Shown here piece by piece: positions 2,856-17,705 of a stretch of DNA of 64,000 nucleotides. The translations under genes were made by a program, and so were the position numbers. Under the pieces are notes generated by a model. That model saw only the letters and a list, made by a program, of their open reading frames with translations. It ran no database searches and had not been told where the DNA came from. Source of the DNA: Hexactinellida sp. DTS-2022 (lineage: Eukaryota > Porifera > Hexactinellida); assembly GCA_028753945.1 (NCBI GenBank), contig JAPNXP010000009.1:992001-1056000 (forward strand). The letters are read 5' to 3'. Numbering within the stretch: position 1 is the stretch's first letter; each line of letters opens with the position of its first letter.

Positions 2856-3552
2856 TATTAGTGGTGTTTCACTAGTCTATTACAAGTTAGCTAACTAGCA
2901 GAGAAATATATATACTTTTATGTTTAGACAGAACTGTGTATTCCCGTTCACGTGGGTAATTACCATCTCGCAGATTTAAAATTCCCAGGAATGCTTTTAT
3001 TTATGTTTCTACATTGTATCAATGCTTAGGAATGGGTGTAATTTACATAAATTATAAGTAAGCCATTGTTGAAGTAGATTATTCCATTATTATCATACGT
3101 AAATATAAAATCCATAACCACCCTCCATTTATCTTATAAATATTAATACTACGGAGTAACTGTGATAGCAATCTTCAAGCCACACATTTCTTCTTTACAC
3201 ATTGGAAGTATGGATAAGTATAATGGCTTCTTACACTGTCGCGAAATTTGGAGGTTTTCAACAAAATTTTATTTTTAGAGCGAACTGTTACTAATTTGTA
3301 ATAACATAATTGTACACAGTACAATATCATATGACCTAAGATGTCATTATGGTATCACCCTATCAACATACAGATTATTTACAGATATAATTATCTTTCC
3401 AAATGTAATCAATCACATTTGGCTATTCCAAGAGGCCTATACACAGAGAACTGAAACAAGACCCTTGAATCTAGTCACAATGCTAGAGCTTATGTTATTA
3501 ATGCTGGGGGTTATATAAGAGTGCCACTTTCAAGGTCAGTTGTATTCCTAAT
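2856..3552. other. AT-rich intergenic region between two divergent genes
   Basis: About 700 bp of AT-rich sequence between the divergent MASK-like and RTK genes. I see no credible coding exon. It should hold both promoters; the RTK side has a TATA-like box. Confidence 0.6.
3512..3519 (+). promoter_or_regulatory. TATA-like box of the first RTK gene
   Basis: The octamer TATATAAG ends 33 bp before the ATG at 3553, with GC-rich flanks (CTGGGGGT before it). The position implies a very short 5' leader. Assigned on motif and position only. Confidence 0.45.
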
Positions 3553-5808
3553 ATGCATTGTGTATTTCCTCAATATGCTCTTCATTTTCTGATGATATGT
3601 CTGTGGTTGGGTTCCACCGTAATGACTGTAGAGATTTGTACAGATACTACCTGCTCGGTTGAAGTGACCTATATAAATCCGGAGGGAGAAGATTGGTTCA
3701 ATAAAACCTGTCCCCCTGACCTCTACAGCGGTAGGAATGATACCACGGTAGATGTGACTGTCGGTAATACCTATGAATTCTTCTGCGTATTTTGTAATGG
3801 AGTGTCAGGGGGTATCGCAAGCTGCGATTGCGAATTGTATAGCTTGTCACTGTCAGATGACTTTCACATAAAATATGAGTGCAAGGTACCTACAAATAAT
3901 CCGGTATTCACTCCCAAAGTAATCACAGCCCAAACGTTTGCCGTTTTATCAACTACTACGACTACACCGCAAATATTCATTACTAGTACAAGCACTACTA
4001 GCACTAGTACTACTAGTATTAGTACACGTACTACTAGTGCAAGTACTACTAGTACTAGTACACGTAGTACAAGTACACGTAGTACAAGTACTACTAGTAC
4101 TAGTACACGTAGTACAAGTACTACTAGTACTAGTACACTCCAACCTGTAACCACTAATTCCACAACAAACAGGCAGCCTGCCAGTGGAATGACAAGGGCG
4201 ATCCTGGGCGCGATCATGTCAATAATTGTAATCGCGATATTGGCTTGTATAAGTGTCACGGTATGTGTAATCGTTATAATAACAGTACAGATATATAGAA
4301 AAAGGAGAAAATGTGACATACTTCGACAAAATGTCTATGCCGATATAGACAACTCGCGAGCCAGCATGGCTCTATACATGGAATTGTCAGAGATAGAAAA
4401 TCAAATCGGTTTCTCAGTCCCCCTGGGCCTAGGGTCTCCTAAAGATGAAGAAAATAACGCAGTGTATTCTAACGCCGAAGATGGCATTCAGGAATTCACT
4501 CTGAATAGTACGAGAAATGTGACCGAGGAGATGTACGGCTATATCACAAGGAGAGAGGGAATGGATGAAGTGAGACCAGCTGATCCATGGTATGACAACA
4601 ACAGCCAGTTGCTAAAGTTAGAATCTACACTCAACAACATGGGAAAACTAACTTTTCTTCCGGTACCCTCCTTCACAGCGAGAAATAGCTTTCAAGTGGA
4701 AAGTCCTGGGTTCGAGACTTATGCAAAATGCGTGTCTGATTCTACTGGGGAGATGGATCACTGTTATGAGAACTTCAGTTCTGCAGATACTTACGAAGAC
4801 CCCCCGGGAACCAAGATGGAATTATACAACAGAATGTCACACATGAGGTTAAGAGAAATAAATCCGGACACAATGAGGATTATCGACACGCTGGGGACAG
4901 GGGAGTTTGGGTCTGTTATGAAAGCTGTTTGGGAGAGTCCTCTGGGGGAGACAGATGTAGCGCTTAAGGTGCTCAAGGAGCCTGGAGATGGAGACAGAAT
5001 AAACACCGCGTTTCTCCAGGAGGCCGCTATCCTGGGTCAGTTCTCGCACCCCAACGTCCTCCGACTGGTGGGGGTGGTCACGCTGACTGCGCCTAACATG
5101 ATAGTGACGGAGCTGATGCAGGAAGAGCTGAGACGCTTCCTGCTGACGCTGCAGACTCAGCACAGCCGGGAGCTGGACTACGAGACCCTAGCGCCGCACT
5201 TCCTCTCCTTCAGCAGACAGGTGGCCAGCGGCATGCAGCACCTGGCCGAGAGAGGCTGCATACACAGAGACATCGCGGCCAGGAACATCCTGCTCACGGA
5301 CAGGTGCGTGTGTAAGATCGCAGACTTCGGTATGTCCAGACGGCTGGAGGCGGAGTCGGACTACTACCGCGTGAAAGGAGGCACCAAGGTGCCCGTCAAG
5401 TGGTCTGCTCCCGAGGCTATCTTCTTCAAGCGGTTCTCTCTCAAGAGCGACGTGTGGAGCTACGGCATGCTCCTGTACGAGATCTGGTCGGTGGGCAGGA
5501 AGCCGTGGCCGTACGAGGACAACAAGAGCACCGTGGAGAAGCTGGCTCGCGGGGCGAACCTGCCTCCTCCCGCGGGCTGTGCCCGTTCGGTCTACGAGCT
5601 GATGGTTAGCACCTGGCACCCCAAGCCCGACCAGCGGCCCGACATGAGGGATATCGTGACTAGACTCAGTGAGTCGGAAGAGAGTCTGCTGACTCGTGGG
5701 GACCTGGAGAACGGGGAAGGAAAGGAAATATTTGCTTTGGGAGCAGAACCATCCGTAGCGGACAATTTGTACAGAGATTTACAAGACAAATACCTCTCAA
5801 CAAAATGA
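3553..5808 (+). CDS. Receptor tyrosine kinase with Ser/Thr-rich stalk (RTK-1)
   Basis: Single exon, 751 aa. A signal peptide (hydrophobic residues ~10-25) precedes a small Cys-containing ectodomain with N-glycosylation sequons. A Ser/Thr/Arg repeat stalk follows at ~131-200, then a transmembrane helix at ~216-248 and a basic stop-transfer segment. The juxtamembrane region is Tyr-rich (NVYADI, CYENF, DTYEDP). The kinase domain spans ~443-710: glycine loop GTGEFG, VALK lysine, FLQEAAIL helix-C glutamate, HRDIAARN catalytic loop, DFGMSRR, then KVPVKWSAPEAI. All catalytic residues are present and the PVKW motif indicates Tyr specificity. It probably senses an extracellular ligand, which is unknown. 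The catalytic domain is nearly identical in DNA to the convergent gene at 6118-8151, while the rest of the protein is not. A polyadenylation-like AATAAA follows the stop within 15 bp. Confidence 0.9.
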   Translation: MHCVFPQYALHFLMICLWLGSTVMTVEICTDTTCSVEVTYINPEGEDWFNKTCPPDLYSGRNDTTVDVTVGNTYEFFCVFCNGVSGGIASCDCELYSLSLSDDFHIKYECKVPTNNPVFTPKVITAQTFAVLSTTTTTPQIFITSTSTTSTSTTSISTRTTSASTTSTSTRSTSTRSTSTTSTSTRSTSTTSTSTLQPVTTNSTTNRQPASGMTRAILGAIMSIIVIAILACISVTVCVIVIITVQIYRKRRKCDILRQNVYADIDNSRASMALYMELSEIENQIGFSVPLGLGSPKDEENNAVYSNAEDGIQEFTLNSTRNVTEEMYGYITRREGMDEVRPADPWYDNNSQLLKLESTLNNMGKLTFLPVPSFTARNSFQVESPGFETYAKCVSDSTGEMDHCYENFSSADTYEDPPGTKMELYNRMSHMRLREINPDTMRIIDTLGTGEFGSVMKAVWESPLGETDVALKVLKEPGDGDRINTAFLQEAAILGQFSHPNVLRLVGVVTLTAPNMIVTELMQEELRRFLLTLQTQHSRELDYETLAPHFLSFSRQVASGMQHLAERGCIHRDIAARNILLTDRCVCKIADFGMSRRLEAESDYYRVKGGTKVPVKWSAPEAIFFKRFSLKSDVWSYGMLLYEIWSVGRKPWPYEDNKSTVEKLARGANLPPPAGCARSVYELMVSTWHPKPDQRPDMRDIVTRLSESEESLLTRGDLENGEGKEIFALGAEPSVADNLYRDLQDKYLSTK
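3985..4137 (+). repeat. Degenerate ACT/AGT/ACA repeat encoding the Ser/Thr stalk
   Basis: Short-period repeat built of AGTACTACT, AGTACA and AGTACACGT units inside the RTK-1 coding region. It encodes TSTSTTS/STR repeats, probably an O-glycosylated mucin-like stalk. The repeat also keeps other frames open, which explains spurious overlapping reading frames here. Confidence 0.8.
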
Positions 5809-6117: not shown

Positions 6118-8151
6118 CTAGTCCACTTTTATATTCAAATACTTGTTTTGTAAATCATAATACAGCTCCTCTGCTGCAATCGGGTCAGCCCCAAGCAAGA
6201 AAGCGGGCGCATTAGATCCCCTCTTGTTCTCCAGCTCCCCACGAGTCAGCAGACTCTCTTCCGACTCACTGAGTCTAGTCACGATATCCCTCATGTCGGG
6301 CCGTTGGTCGGGCTTGGGGTGCCAGGTGCTAACCATCAGCTCGTAGACCGAACGGGCACAGCCCGCGGGAGGAGGCAGGTTCGCCCCGCGAGCCAGCTTC
6401 TCCACGGTGCTCTTGTTGTCCTCGTACGGCCACGGCTTCCTGCCCACCGACCAGATCTCGTACAGGAGCATGCCGTAGCTCCACACGTCGCTCTTGAGAG
6501 AGAACCGCTTGAAGAAGATAGCCTCGGGAGCAGACCACTTGACGGGCACCTTGGTGCCTCCTTTCACGCGGTAGTAGTCCGACTCCGCCTCCAGCCGTCT
6601 GGACATGCCGAAGTCTGCGATCTTACACACGCACCTGTCCGTGAGCAGGATGTTCCTGGCCGCGATGTCTCTGTGTATGCAGCCTCTCTCGGCCAGGTGC
6701 TGCATGCCGCTGGCCACCTGTCTGCTGAAGGAGAGGAAGTGCGGCGCCAGGGTCTCGTAGTCCAGCTCCCGGCTGTGCTGAGTCTGCAGCGTCAGCAGGA
6801 AGCGTCTCAGCTCTTCCTGCATCAGCTCCGTCACTATCATGTTAGGCGCAGTCAGCGTGACCACCCCCACCAGTCGGAGGACGTTGGGGTGCGAGAACTG
6901 ACCCAGGATAGCGGCCTCTTGGAGAAATGCGGTTTTCGACTGTTCGGCGATATCCTGGTTCATCACCTTGAGAGCTACATTAATGTCTCCCACAGGACTG
7001 TCCCACACTCCCCTACTCACCTCACCGAATTCCCCAGACCCGATTTTCTCTAGGACAGTTATCGTGTCCCTGTTGAGTTCGAGAAGTTTCCCTGTGGACA
7101 TCTGATCGTACAAATCGTTTACATTAGCAGAAGGCTCCTTGTATATGGGTTCCTCTGTGATCATGTAATCACCATCACTGGCATAATCAGAGTAATCCGC
7201 ATCCGATTTGAATCTAGTATAATCACCGAATTGATCGTAGTTTCTCTGCTCCTTGGTAGGGACGATGATGTAGCTAACCTTTCCTTTCTGATTCTTGGAA
7301 GAGGAAAACTTGCGAACACTCTTTATTTGGTCATCAAGTGACTCGTATAACGCCTCGCTAGAAACAGGTTTCGCTCGTCGAATTAGTTGATAGAGGTCCT
7401 CAGAATTATTGGTGCACGAGCCAAGAAAGGACAAGTTTGATGTATCTGCATCAATGTAATCATAATCATTAAAGTTAACTTGCCAATACAGAGGCTCCAA
7501 ATTTGATGGTAGATCTGTGTCTAGCGGAGTGCAAGGATTGACGATATGACAATTATAATCGTTTGACCGCACTCTAAGAGACCCTTCAACCGTGTTCGCT
7601 TCTACAGACCTTACATATACCTTACTCTTCCTAGAAACTAGACACCATATAACTATAACGCCAAACAGGATTGCAACTAATGCCACTAGTAGTACAAATA
7701 CTAGAATCACAGGAATTGTTATACCTAATACTGACCTCAATTCCACTGGAACTGTCACTGAAACTGTCTTTGAAACTGGGATAGTTGTTGGAGAGATAGG
7801 AAGCTTATATAAAAATCCATCGCAATCAAATAGCTCATCACCTATTCGTTCAACAGTACTTTTAAGTTGGCAGAAACAAGAGACCACATTGTTAAGTGGA
7901 AACACAGCAAAGGCCAACCCTTCACAGGTCAACAAGTAGTTCGGAGTTGACCCTGTAGTGACATTACTGAAATTGTGAGGAATAATAATGCCAGTTGGCA
8001 CGCTACAAAACGTATTTTGGCCAAGCGGTATAATCCAATCTACTAACCATGGAAAATCAATCTTGACATCACATATAACCTGAGTTACCTGACATACTAT
8101 CTCAACATTGATAAAGCAGAAGAGGGCGAAGAGTTTAAAAATTGTATTCAT
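6118..8151 (-). CDS. Receptor tyrosine kinase (RTK-2), convergent paralog
   Basis: Single exon, 677 aa. An N-terminal signal peptide leads into a small ectodomain with several Cys and N-glycosylation sites (NFSN), without the Ser/Thr repeat stalk of RTK-1. A transmembrane helix sits at ~139-171. The juxtamembrane region holds many Tyr motifs (DYIDAD, EALYESL, DLYDQM). The kinase domain covers ~365-635: GSGEFG loop, VALKVM lysine, HRDIAARN, DFG, PVKWSAPEAI. From the helix-C segment TAFLQEAAIL to the end of the kinase (LTRG) the protein is identical to RTK-1; the glycine-loop region, ectodomain and tail are only similar. The short C-terminal tail matches the pattern LGA.P...LY.DLQ.KYL of RTK-1. 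The pair are local paralogs sharing a homogenised catalytic tract. Confidence 0.9.
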   Translation of the reverse strand: MNTIFKLFALFCFINVEIVCQVTQVICDVKIDFPWLVDWIIPLGQNTFCSVPTGIIIPHNFSNVTTGSTPNYLLTCEGLAFAVFPLNNVVSCFCQLKSTVERIGDELFDCDGFLYKLPISPTTIPVSKTVSVTVPVELRSVLGITIPVILVFVLLVALVAILFGVIVIWCLVSRKSKVYVRSVEANTVEGSLRVRSNDYNCHIVNPCTPLDTDLPSNLEPLYWQVNFNDYDYIDADTSNLSFLGSCTNNSEDLYQLIRRAKPVSSEALYESLDDQIKSVRKFSSSKNQKGKVSYIIVPTKEQRNYDQFGDYTRFKSDADYSDYASDGDYMITEEPIYKEPSANVNDLYDQMSTGKLLELNRDTITVLEKIGSGEFGEVSRGVWDSPVGDINVALKVMNQDIAEQSKTAFLQEAAILGQFSHPNVLRLVGVVTLTAPNMIVTELMQEELRRFLLTLQTQHSRELDYETLAPHFLSFSRQVASGMQHLAERGCIHRDIAARNILLTDRCVCKIADFGMSRRLEAESDYYRVKGGTKVPVKWSAPEAIFFKRFSLKSDVWSYGMLLYEIWSVGRKPWPYEDNKSTVEKLARGANLPPPAGCARSVYELMVSTWHPKPDQRPDMRDIVTRLSESEESLLTRGELENKRGSNAPAFLLGADPIAAEELYYDLQNKYLNIKVD

Positions 8152-14959: not shown

Positions 14960-15424
14960 TCAACTCCGTTTGTGTTTTCTGCTTTTACTTGTCAGTCCTT
15001 TTGTATCAATCTTCAATTCCTTTTTGAGTCTTTTCTTTTGCTTCTTTTCCCGTTTGTGTTTTTTCTTCTCTTTCCTTTCCTTCCCGCGGCTACTAACGCC
15101 TAGTATTTCCTTTACCATTTTATCGGAGATGGACACACTCTCCCCCTTCGCCCCCTCGGACTCCTCCTGTCCCATCGCTATCGCCATTCCGCGAGACTCC
15201 ATCTCTTTAACCAGTCTGATTTCCTCATTCAGTCTCTCCTGCTTGTCGCCCTCTCCGTTCCGCAGGTACCAGTTCTGCTCGCGGACTTTATGCACGTGGC
15301 CGATCGGCGCTTTAAGAGAGTGCCCCAGATAGTTTTCGCGGTATTTGTCCCCTTTAACGTCCTCCCAGTCGAACTGGTCCTTACCCCCTCTCACCCCGCC
15401 TCTTGACGGCATGCGAAGAGACAT
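14960..15424 (-). CDS. MMTAG2: MMTAG2 (C1orf35)-like nuclear protein
   Basis: Single exon, 154 aa. The N-terminal signature RGGVRGGKDQFDWEDVK near residue 8, followed by DKYRENYLGHSLKAPIG and a Trp-Tyr pair (QNWYL), is that of multiple myeloma tumour-associated protein 2. The C-terminal third is extremely Lys/Arg-rich (KERKEKKKHKREKKQKK), consistent with nuclear or nucleolar location. Molecular function is not established. It begins 117 bp downstream of the EI24 stop on the same strand, part of a head-to-tail run microprotein-EI24-MMTAG2-EFCAB11. Confidence 0.85.
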   Translation of the reverse strand: MSLRMPSRGGVRGGKDQFDWEDVKGDKYRENYLGHSLKAPIGHVHKVREQNWYLRNGEGDKQERLNEEIRLVKEMESRGMAIAMGQEESEGAKGESVSISDKMVKEILGVSSRGKERKEKKKHKREKKQKKRLKKELKIDTKGLTSKSRKHKRS

Positions 15425-15541
15425 TCTAACGGATCAGGATTACACAAAAAGGAGTGCAACATTAACTATATTCATGCCAAACTCAATACAAATGTGTGTA
15501 AAACGAATTTAATGAACATAGCTACCATTGGAATTACAGTT

Positions 15542-16899
15542 CTAATCAGGGCCTTCTGGAATTGACTGAGCGGGGTCTCTCACAGCTGATTTCCGGTCCG
15601 GACCCGGGCTCCGGGCGGACCGCACGAACAGCTTGTCAGCCGCTAAGCTGGAAAGTGTGAATATCTGCAGCTGCGGGATGGCGTCGTTGGAGAACTTGAT
15701 TTTAGCTGGATAGGCACTCACGATGTAGAAGGGGAACAAGGCCGAGTATATGCAAGCGCTCAGAACGAACGAAGACGGAATGAATGTTGCTACTGTAAGA
15801 ATAGAAGCGTAGCCAATGAAGTAGGGCCAACCTATATGATTCATAGATTACAGCATACTCTCGTTAGTACGAACACGGCTAATAGGAAATCCCGGTTTAA
15901 TACGAACACTATTTCAGTCACCTTCAAGCATTTTCAATACAAATGACATCGGTTAATAAGAATTCCGGATAAGGCAAACACATTTTGACTGTCCCCTGGT
16001 GTTCGTACTAACGAGTTCTACTGTATATAGCTATAGCATATAGATATGTGTTACTAACCGAACTCTATGCATCTGAGCATGGCTTTGGTCTCTATCCCCT
16101 GGTGCATCCATTTGTACTCGAATGCGTACAGCGCATTCAGTATGCACAGGTGCAGTAGGTATACCAGAGAGCCGACCACTGGCAGGAAGGAGATGCAGAG
16201 GGACTGTAGCATAAACAGCAGCTCTATTACCATTCGGAATATGCAGTCCGCGAGCACGCGAGATATGTGAGCTACAGAAACACACGTTATAAAGGGAATA
16301 TATGGTTACAACGTTATGTAACGCTCCAAGGGGGAGGGGTAGCCAATGTGTGACAGAGCATCCTCTTTGTATTACAAACAAGTCAAAACACGTGACATAG
16401 GGGGGAGTTATTTTCAGGAAATTGCGTTACGTAGCGTTACAGATAACTCACTTGTGAGAGACAGTTTGGGTCCATGGTTCGGACTGCGTGTTTGCTTGTT
16501 GGAAGGAAACGAATCTTTGTAAGCGGCAACCGCCGTTTTCTGGAACGTTAGAATGTTGATGATCTTACTTATCCAAAGGAGCGGGAGAACCCAGAGGCCG
16601 TTAACGACGTACCATACCAAAGTAGTTACCATAGTAACCATCTCACTATTTTGCTTGGCAGTGTCCGGAAAGAGAAGCGACGAGAAGAGAGAAAGTAGGA
16701 AGTAGGAGAGCGGAAATATTATGTACTCGATAGTAAGCACGCTGAATCCCAGCACGAATATGTTAATAAATACGGAGTTAAGAAATGATTTTTTAATTTC
16801 ACTATTTTGCTTAATTAATCTTAAGAATAGAGATACCCCTTTGAGCGAGTCAACTAGTCCTGCTACGAAACCTGAAATGAAAGCTGAGGCTGTTTCCAT
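15542..16899 (-). CDS. EI24: EI24 autophagy-associated ER transmembrane protein
   Basis: Three exons, 16899-16452, 16271-16059 and 15831-15542, phases 1 and 1; 316 aa. Several transmembrane helices. Conserved blocks: FISGFVAGLVDSLKGV at the N-terminus, LLHLCILNALYAFEYKWMHQGIE across exon 2, and GWPYFIGYAS continued by a Cys-containing helix CIYSALFPFYIVSA. EI24/PIG8 is an ER protein needed for autophagosome/lysosome steps and linked to p53-dependent apoptosis. Its ATG begins one base after the stop codon of the upstream microprotein ORF, so both are likely on one transcript. Intron 2 carries a family A MITE. Confidence 0.9.
15851..16023. mobile_element. MITE family A, copy 2, inside EI24 intron 2
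   Basis: Left end CAGCATACTCTCGTTAGTAC-GAACAC and right end, reverse-complemented, CAGTAGAACTCGTTAGTAC-GAACACC. Internal CTTCAAGCATTTTCAATACA is shared with the other copies. It occupies most of a 227-bp intron. Confidence 0.7.
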
Positions 16900-16900
16900 T

Positions 16901-17143
16901 TCAATCTTTTTTGGTGATTTTACGTCGCAGCTCCTTCAGGTACTGGCCTACGTCCAGAAATGAGTTTGGAGATTGCTGTTCCAGATATATACCCGTGGCG
17001 GAGCCGATTATAAAGCCGATCAAAAGCGATTTACTCAAATTAGCGAATACAAACCCGGATAGGAATCCTTTAATGAAACTGATTGTGTTTGTAGATGAGA
17101 ATAACTCTACCTTTTCTCTCTTCTCAGAAGTCGGCTTGTCCAT
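16901..17143 (-). CDS. SLC35A4-MP: SLC35A4 upstream-ORF microprotein homolog, upstream cistron of EI24
   Basis: 80 aa from ATG at 17143 to TGA at 16903-16901. The C-terminal half, FIKGFLSGFVFANL..SLLIGFIIG..TGIY, then YLKELRRKI, closely matches the conserved part of the human microprotein made from the SLC35A4 upstream ORF (FLKGFLAGYVVAKL..., GFAVG..TGIY, DYLQLLRK), recalled from family knowledge. One transmembrane helix with GxxxG-like glycines, hydrophilic N-terminus, basic tail. The human protein is reported in the mitochondrial inner membrane. Here the ORF ends one base before the EI24 ATG, in a different frame, with no splice acceptor between. No SLC35A4 gene follows. The reading frame is open a little further upstream, but this is the first ATG. 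Confidence 0.75.
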   Translation of the reverse strand: MDKPTSEKREKVELFSSTNTISFIKGFLSGFVFANLSKSLLIGFIIGSATGIYLEQQSPNSFLDVGQYLKELRRKITKKD

Positions 17144-17345
17144 ACTACTTACAGGGGAGGCACATGCCAAGCTACACGTGCAGGCAACATGTAATAAGAT
17201 ACCACTGTATCCCTATTTGTATTGAATTACCCGATGTAATGAATGGCATATGGTTAGTTAGTATAACTAATTAATTAATTGTAAAGTATTCGAATTTGAG
17301 TTTATGATGTGTGCCAGACTGTATTCATATCATTATCTCAATGTG

Positions 17346-17705
17346 TTAACAGGTGAAGGAGTCTGGAGTTATTTCCTCCCAGGCGTGTCCGGTGCCGGGG
17401 ACAGGGGGCAGCTGTGAGTCCAGTGACGCATCCGTGTCCATAGTCCGGAGCTCACCGCCCCCAGCAGCCAGCAGCCCGAGGCTAGCGGAGGTGCTAATAA
17501 CCGTAGGGGGCCCCACCTCCCTCCTGACGTCACGCGAGTAGTAGTAGTTGTCTGCCAGCTTGTGGGCGGGGCCGGAGGGCAGGTAGGGGGCGGGAACGGA
17601 GCGAGAGGACTGGGACTTAATTTCGCGTTGGTGCGCGTGGGTTTCTAGGTCGCGACCGGATAAGTAACTTCTGAGCCAGCGGATGAATCCGGACTGTCTG
17701 GACAT
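17346..17705 (-). CDS. NDUFA7: NADH dehydrogenase (complex I) subunit A7
   Basis: Single exon, 119 aa. The pattern IRWLRSYLSGRDL near residue 8, QREIKSQSS, then PSGPAHKLADNYYYSRDVRRE near 43-63 and a WEEITPDSF C-terminus match NDUFA7 (B14.5a), whose hallmark is GP.HKL..NYY..RD.RRE. The subunit is a small accessory part of the matrix arm of mitochondrial complex I. The middle region (TSASLGLLAAGG) is low complexity and family-variable. The gene is divergent from nothing close; the neighbour upstream on the same strand is PAPS synthase at 18003. Confidence 0.85.
   Translation of the reverse strand: MSRQSGFIRWLRSYLSGRDLETHAHQREIKSQSSRSVPAPYLPSGPAHKLADNYYYSRDVRREVGPPTVISTSASLGLLAAGGGELRTMDTDASLDSQLPPVPGTGHAWEEITPDSFTC

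Follow-up and report, generated by a model that had tools for sequence, protein, structure and literature searches.

A STREMI-type microprotein ORF one base upstream of EI24 in a hexactinellid sponge genome: a candidate two-cistron locus

Introduction

In vertebrates, the microprotein STREMI (SLC35A4-MP) is encoded by an ORF upstream of SLC35A4. The two ORFs share a bicistronic mRNA, from which the microprotein ORF is translated, and it is reported to control the downstream ORF under stress (PMC13303939, PMC4383229). Guo et al. 2026 describe STREMI homologues as exclusive to vertebrates, place the linkage to SLC35A4 in jawed vertebrates, and explain the bicistronic gene through retroposition of SLC35A4 (PMC13303939). 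For ORFs lying as near to each other as those described here, the closest worked model is a set of green-algal bicistronic loci, in which a weakened first start led to more of the second product (PMC11892635). Among the papers listed in literature searches and considered by title and abstract, none reports STREMI in a non-vertebrate or a pairing of the microprotein with EI24.

Here we analyze a 64,000-nucleotide stretch of DNA from a hexactinellid sponge (the window), within a searched genome of 112.4 Mb in 18 contigs. In this window, an ORF that resembles STREMI ends one base before the start codon of EI24.

Results

The minus strand of the window carries, in 5′ to 3′ order, a PAPS-synthetase-type gene (a name assigned by eye), NDUFA7, the microprotein ORF, EI24, and an MMTAG2-type gene (Table 1). 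The intergenic gaps along this row measure 297, 202, 1, and 117 bases, the 1-base gap being the exception. The initial annotation had placed an 80-codon ORF directly upstream of EI24 in a different frame, and these coordinates are exact in the sequence; its further statement that no acceptor AG lies between stop and start also holds, since a single intervening base leaves no room for one. What it had called a TGAAATG-like overlap is instead a one-base gap, as the junction reads TGA-A-ATG. A six-codon ORF upstream of the microprotein shows the same stop-N-start spacing as the microprotein and EI24, which matters only if the mRNA begins farther upstream.

Table 1. Features at the microprotein/EI24 locus, in window coordinates
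Feature	Position	Strand	Remarks
STREMI-type (SLC35A4-MP-like) microprotein ORF	16901..17143	-	80 codons plus TGA
Microprotein start and stop codons	ATG 17143-17141; TGA 16903-16901	-	Sequence
Lone base (A) separating TGA from the EI24 ATG	16900..16900	-	Sequence
EI24 ATG	16899-16897	-	Frame offset +1 relative to the microprotein
First part of hydrophobic region, residues 22-38, with GFLSG (GxxxG) motif	17030..17080	-	STREMI alignment; no counterpart in STMP1
Second part of hydrophobic region, residues 39-55, with GxxxGxxxGxY motif	16979..17029	-	Motif common to STREMI and STMP1
EI24 exon 1	16452..16899	-	Donor GTGAGT at 16451
EI24 exon 2	16059..16271	-	PF07264 31.7 bits for the exon alone, slightly below cut-off 32
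EI24 exon 3 and stop	15542..15831	-	Spliced product 316 aa, PF07264 43.2 bits
ATTAAA, candidate poly(A) signal 3′ of EI24	15508..15513	-	Motif only
Acceptor-like AG within the microprotein ORF	16948..16949	-	Top 5.4% of 11,292 genomic AGs, rough generic score
Donor-like GT (GTAAGT) 5′ of the microprotein ATG	17151..17152	-	Top 1.3% of 11,002 genomic GTs, same rough score
Six-codon upstream ORF (ATG to TAG)	17145..17165	-	Stop one base 5′ of the microprotein ATG
NDUFA7 (CI-B14.5a), upstream neighbor	17346..17705	-	Pfam CI-B14_5a 77 bits; 202 bases 5′ of the microprotein
MMTAG2-type gene, downstream neighbor	14960..15424	-	Pfam MMtag 88.9 bits; 117 bases 3′ of EI24

The downstream ORF opens a gene whose three exons are separated by introns of 180 and 227 bases, both with GT-AG borders. 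Its identification as EI24 is borne out by the spliced 316-residue product, which scores 43.2 bits with Pfam model PF07264 against a cut-off of 32, while single exons fall below the cut-off. A six-frame search of the genome with this model gave one match, exon 2 of the present gene, at 27.6 bits (below the cut-off). With its introns, this EI24 is no retrocopy. EI24 has been reported to promote contacts between the ER and mitochondria (PMC6063967).

We compared the microprotein ORF with human STREMI and human STMP1. The STREMI query, 103 residues long with glycines at positions 54, 71, and 75, agrees in these features with the published description (PMC13303939). When human STREMI was searched against the 112-Mb genome, the strongest match was this ORF (E 2.4e-6, 44% over residues 44-100, a span of 57 residues), and the next and only other match listed had an E value of 4.39. 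Local alignment of the ORF with human STREMI gave a score of 109 (shuffled mean 23.9, z 19.7), which none of 2000 shuffles reached. The similarity to the SLC35A4 microprotein that the initial annotation had seen in the C-terminal half is therefore above chance, but its restriction to that half was too modest, because the first hydrophobic part also matches human STREMI (9 of 14 residues identical, score 50, none of 5000 shuffles as good). The remainder of the ORF scored 61 against a shuffled mean of 17.9, again unequalled in 5000 shuffles.

The alignments agree in finer detail. Residues G43, G47, G51, Y53, Q56, and P59 of the ORF are invariant in an alignment of four sequences. GxxxG motifs (GFLSG in the first hydrophobic part, GFIIG and GSATG in the second) lie in register with human STREMI; in the ORF, G30, G47, and G51 correspond to the human glycines 54, 71, and 75. 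The C-terminus is also in register, the microprotein ending at about the point where human STREMI ends. Hydropathy windows are high and nearly unbroken from about residue 20 to residue 55, a length suited to two membrane passes, without two separate peaks.

With the Pfam model DUF4535, the ORF scored 11 bits, below the cut-off of 28.3, and we therefore do not place it under DUF4535; the human STREMI and STMP1 sequences scored 37.1 and 38.0 bits, both above the cut-off. This shortfall of the ORF is a point against the relationship. Judged by sequence similarity, the ORF is a relative of the microprotein encoded upstream of SLC35A4, and by homology its product is probably mitochondrial. A gene of the DUF543 family, known as MIC10, is present in this genome; MIC10 is reported to be a partner of STREMI.

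A genome search with the DUF4535 model found one place above the cut-off, a 71-residue ORF on contig C1 (L008 4748-4963) that scores 40.6 bits as a protein and has one hydrophobic segment, as in STMP1. About 450 bases 3′ of this STMP1-type gene, in the same orientation, is a WD40-repeat ORF. Alignment of the microprotein ORF with human STMP1 scored 51, which none of 2000 shuffles equalled, and alignment with the genome's own STMP1-type protein scored 32, which 92 of 2000 shuffles reached. On these comparisons, the STREMI-type and STMP1-type genes are separate and coexist in this genome.

Human STMP1 as a query found no match in the genome, although the DUF4535 profile finds the STMP1-type gene. 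The sequence search thus misses a gene that the Pfam model detects, and its empty answers are weak. Such answers include the search with the ORF itself, whose sole match at E 10 was to itself, and the search with reversed human STREMI, which had no match at E 10 and is a weak control on its own. Pattern scans of viral, bacterial, and archaeal contigs yielded 41 and 215 matches, of which none was kept as a confirmed relative, and searches with the microprotein in PDB sequences (best E 2), NCBIfam, and PHROGs were without relevant matches. The SLC35A-family model PF04142 identified two transporter loci, on contigs C3 and C4, and genome searches with the ORF and with human STREMI detected no copy of the microprotein beside either. 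At the nucleotide-sugar transporter locus on C3, a weak NDUFB8-like ORF (L009 4631-5008, E 0.016, below the cut-off) stands head to head with the transporter.

Two further observations concern signaling genes. TGF-beta ligands are an animal trait, and their domains occur at four places in the genome, whereas Wnt and Wntless searches gave no match in it; neither search matched any control genome, so this absence is weak. The combination fits a glass sponge: Oopsacas minuta is described as lacking Wnt and Wntless and keeping TGF-beta (PMC10280926). Within the window, two ORFs that converge on each other and encode tyrosine-kinase domains (3502-5808 on the plus strand and 6118-8151 on the minus strand, measured stop to stop) contain in their kinase parts a 711-base inverted stretch that is 99% identical (5002-5712 and 6226-6936), with no other common stretch of at least 100 bases. 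This stretch reflects either gene conversion or a recent duplication.

Because the microprotein stop lies one base 5′ of the EI24 start in the same exon, an mRNA that holds the complete microprotein must enter EI24, unless it is cleaved inside EI24. A motif scan covering the microprotein ORF together with exon 1 and intron 1 of EI24 turned up no AATAAA; weaker poly(A) motifs do occur there (ATTAAA twice, AGTAAA, and AATACA). We consider it fairly probable that the locus is a two-cistron gene giving both proteins from one mRNA, and we infer that mRNA, its start, and its dual translation from the DNA. Transcription would start within the 202-base gap that separates the microprotein from NDUFA7. 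The 5′ cistron would yield the STREMI-type microprotein, predicted by homology to form a hairpin in the inner mitochondrial membrane, and the 3′ cistron would yield EI24, an ER membrane protein. Scanning ribosomes would initiate at the microprotein ATG, some would bypass it and start at the next one, and some may reinitiate across TGA-A-ATG.

The next ATG after that of the microprotein, in any frame, is the EI24 start, so that leaky scanning is permitted. We rejected this absence of intervening ATGs as evidence of selection, since its chance probability given the protein is 0.55-0.67: it recurs in 55% of synonymous resamplings and 67% of permutations of the ORF's own codons. It is also found in 22 of 266 (8.3%) 80-codon chunks of long ORFs, and among three neighbors examined over the first 244 bases after the start, NDUFA7 and EI24 exon 1 have no ATG and MMTAG2 has four. 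Around the microprotein ATG, positions -3 and +4 hold A and G, a context that is not weak and so disfavors leaky scanning; the EI24 start has G at both positions. A is the commonest -3 base, in 15 of 35 sampled ORF starts. Eighty codons is long for reinitiation. We thus favor neither leaky scanning nor reinitiation over the other.

Codon usage was rejected as support for coding of the microprotein because it is uninformative: among 235 ORFs in the 60-120 codon range, 38% reach the score of the microprotein ORF, NDUFA7 and MMTAG2 score far above it, and EI24 exon 1 scores below it. RNA folding at the junction was likewise set aside (z 0.93, with 162 of 200 shuffles folding at least as well). 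The TGAAATG at the stop and start can pair with a CATTTCA a short way downstream in EI24 (window 16903-16873), in a 201-base region that folds no better than shuffles.

We also counted close ORF pairs, defined as a downstream ORF of at least 120 codons preceded by an upstream ORF of at least 60 codons that ends 0-15 bases before it. In 294 kb (the window and 23 further stretches), 3 of 100 qualified, one of them the microprotein/EI24 pair, where a naive estimate predicts 1.18; the upstream ORFs of the other two had no Pfam match at E 0.1. Sponge genomes are compact, with a median intergenic distance of 0.59 kb given for Amphimedon (PMC4773876), so that neighboring genes lying near each other are nothing unusual. 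By the pair counts, tight spacing of ORFs is unremarkable on its own, and the conservation of both members is what is remarkable here.

The locus could instead consist of two overlapping single-product genes, EI24 having its own 5′ end and the microprotein being made from a longer read-through mRNA, an arrangement that we regard as possible but rather unlikely. The separate 5′ end would come from a promoter inside the microprotein ORF, from cis-splicing that joins a donor at about 17152 to 16947 and so deletes the start of the microprotein, or from trans-splicing of a leader to 16947. The initial annotation had named a splice or promoter site within 16901-16960 as the sign of independent 5′ ends, and that interval does contain a candidate, the acceptor-like AG at 16949-16948, which on a rough score reaches 2.0 compared with 1.0 and 0.4 for the EI24 acceptors (top 5.4% of AGs). 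Moreover, a GTAAGT that begins 9 bases 5′ of the microprotein ATG scores 3.1 (top 1.3% of GTs), compared with 5.0 and 0.1 for EI24's own donors; a second donor-like site at 17230 is in the top 1.6% of GTs, and the implied intron of 205 bases resembles the EI24 introns of 180 and 227 bases. In the glass sponge Aphrocallistes vastus, predicted trans-spliced leaders were found on 4% of long reads (PMC10282587). However, the splice score is a generic one, untrained on this genome, with about 1 in 18 genomic AGs scoring as high; the donor-like site has T rather than G before its GT; and the microprotein mRNA would still need EI24 sequence.

Two other explanations concern the products rather than the transcript. 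The ORF could be a chance frame, or a regulatory upstream ORF whose product is immaterial, as its score below the DUF4535 cut-off and its uninformative codon usage would allow. We consider this very unlikely, given the genome-wide E value of 2.4e-6 and the register of both hydrophobic halves and of the C-terminus with human STREMI. That same C-terminal agreement also argues against programmed +1 frameshifting into a microprotein-EI24 fusion. A +1 shift immediately 5′ of the TGA would indeed enter the EI24 frame, but each protein is expected to sit in a different membrane, and no known +1 shift motif was recognized by eye, which makes a fusion most improbable.

Discussion

Whatever the structure of the transcript, it is very likely that a STREMI-type gene exists outside vertebrates, and this is the firmer of the new points. 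The gene argues against the vertebrate-only distribution given by Guo et al. and does not contradict their dating of the SLC35A4 linkage to jawed vertebrates (PMC13303939). The proposal in the initial annotation that the microprotein is coupled to a partner other than SLC35A4 is upheld at the level of DNA by its adjacency to EI24, whereas the idea that the architecture is older than SLC35A4 goes beyond what a single genome can show. With the SLC35A4 linkage dated to jawed vertebrates, two separate couplings are the simpler reading (PMC13303939). A retroposition route of the SLC35A4 kind does not fit here, because EI24 retains its introns.

More tentatively, STREMI may be an ancient animal microprotein that split from STMP1 before the divergence of sponges and vertebrates and was joined at least twice independently, as a 5′ cistron, to a gene for a membrane protein of the secretory pathway (EI24 here, SLC35A4 in jawed vertebrates), because its ORF would serve as a translation switch, responsive to stress, between mitochondria and the ER and Golgi; we hold this broader scenario to be doubtful at present. 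If a sponge has both a STREMI-type gene and a distinct STMP1-type gene, the split between the two moves far back. A second, intron-bearing partner would amount to a natural repeat, from which one can ask whether the microprotein ORF is a favored upstream regulator regardless of the gene downstream. The reported role of EI24 in ER-mitochondria contacts makes an mRNA common to it and a mitochondrial cristae protein a testable idea (PMC6063967).

Among known systems, STMP1/mitolamban (DUF4535) has the GxxxGxxxGxY...Q..P core also found in the microprotein, but it lacks the first hydrophobic part, and the sponge has its own STMP1-type gene elsewhere, on contig C1. The green-algal leaky-scanning loci resemble the present one in their short gap between ORFs and the lack of an ATG between the two starts; they differ in having weak ORF 1 starts and ATG depletion as a trend across many loci (PMC11892635), whereas the microprotein start in the sponge is not weak and its lack of intervening ATGs is within chance. 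Vertebrate SLC35A4-MP/STREMI is alike in its homologous microprotein, its GxxxG motifs at matching places, and its position as a 5′ ORF before a longer ORF for a membrane protein (PMC13303939, PMC4383229). The N-terminal region of the sponge microprotein is about 24 residues shorter than that of vertebrate STREMI. Unlike the vertebrate partner SLC35A4, which is reported to be intronless, EI24 has introns and follows the microprotein after a one-base gap in a non-vertebrate host, and where the vertebrate gene is described from a bicistronic mRNA, the sponge locus is known from adjacency in DNA.
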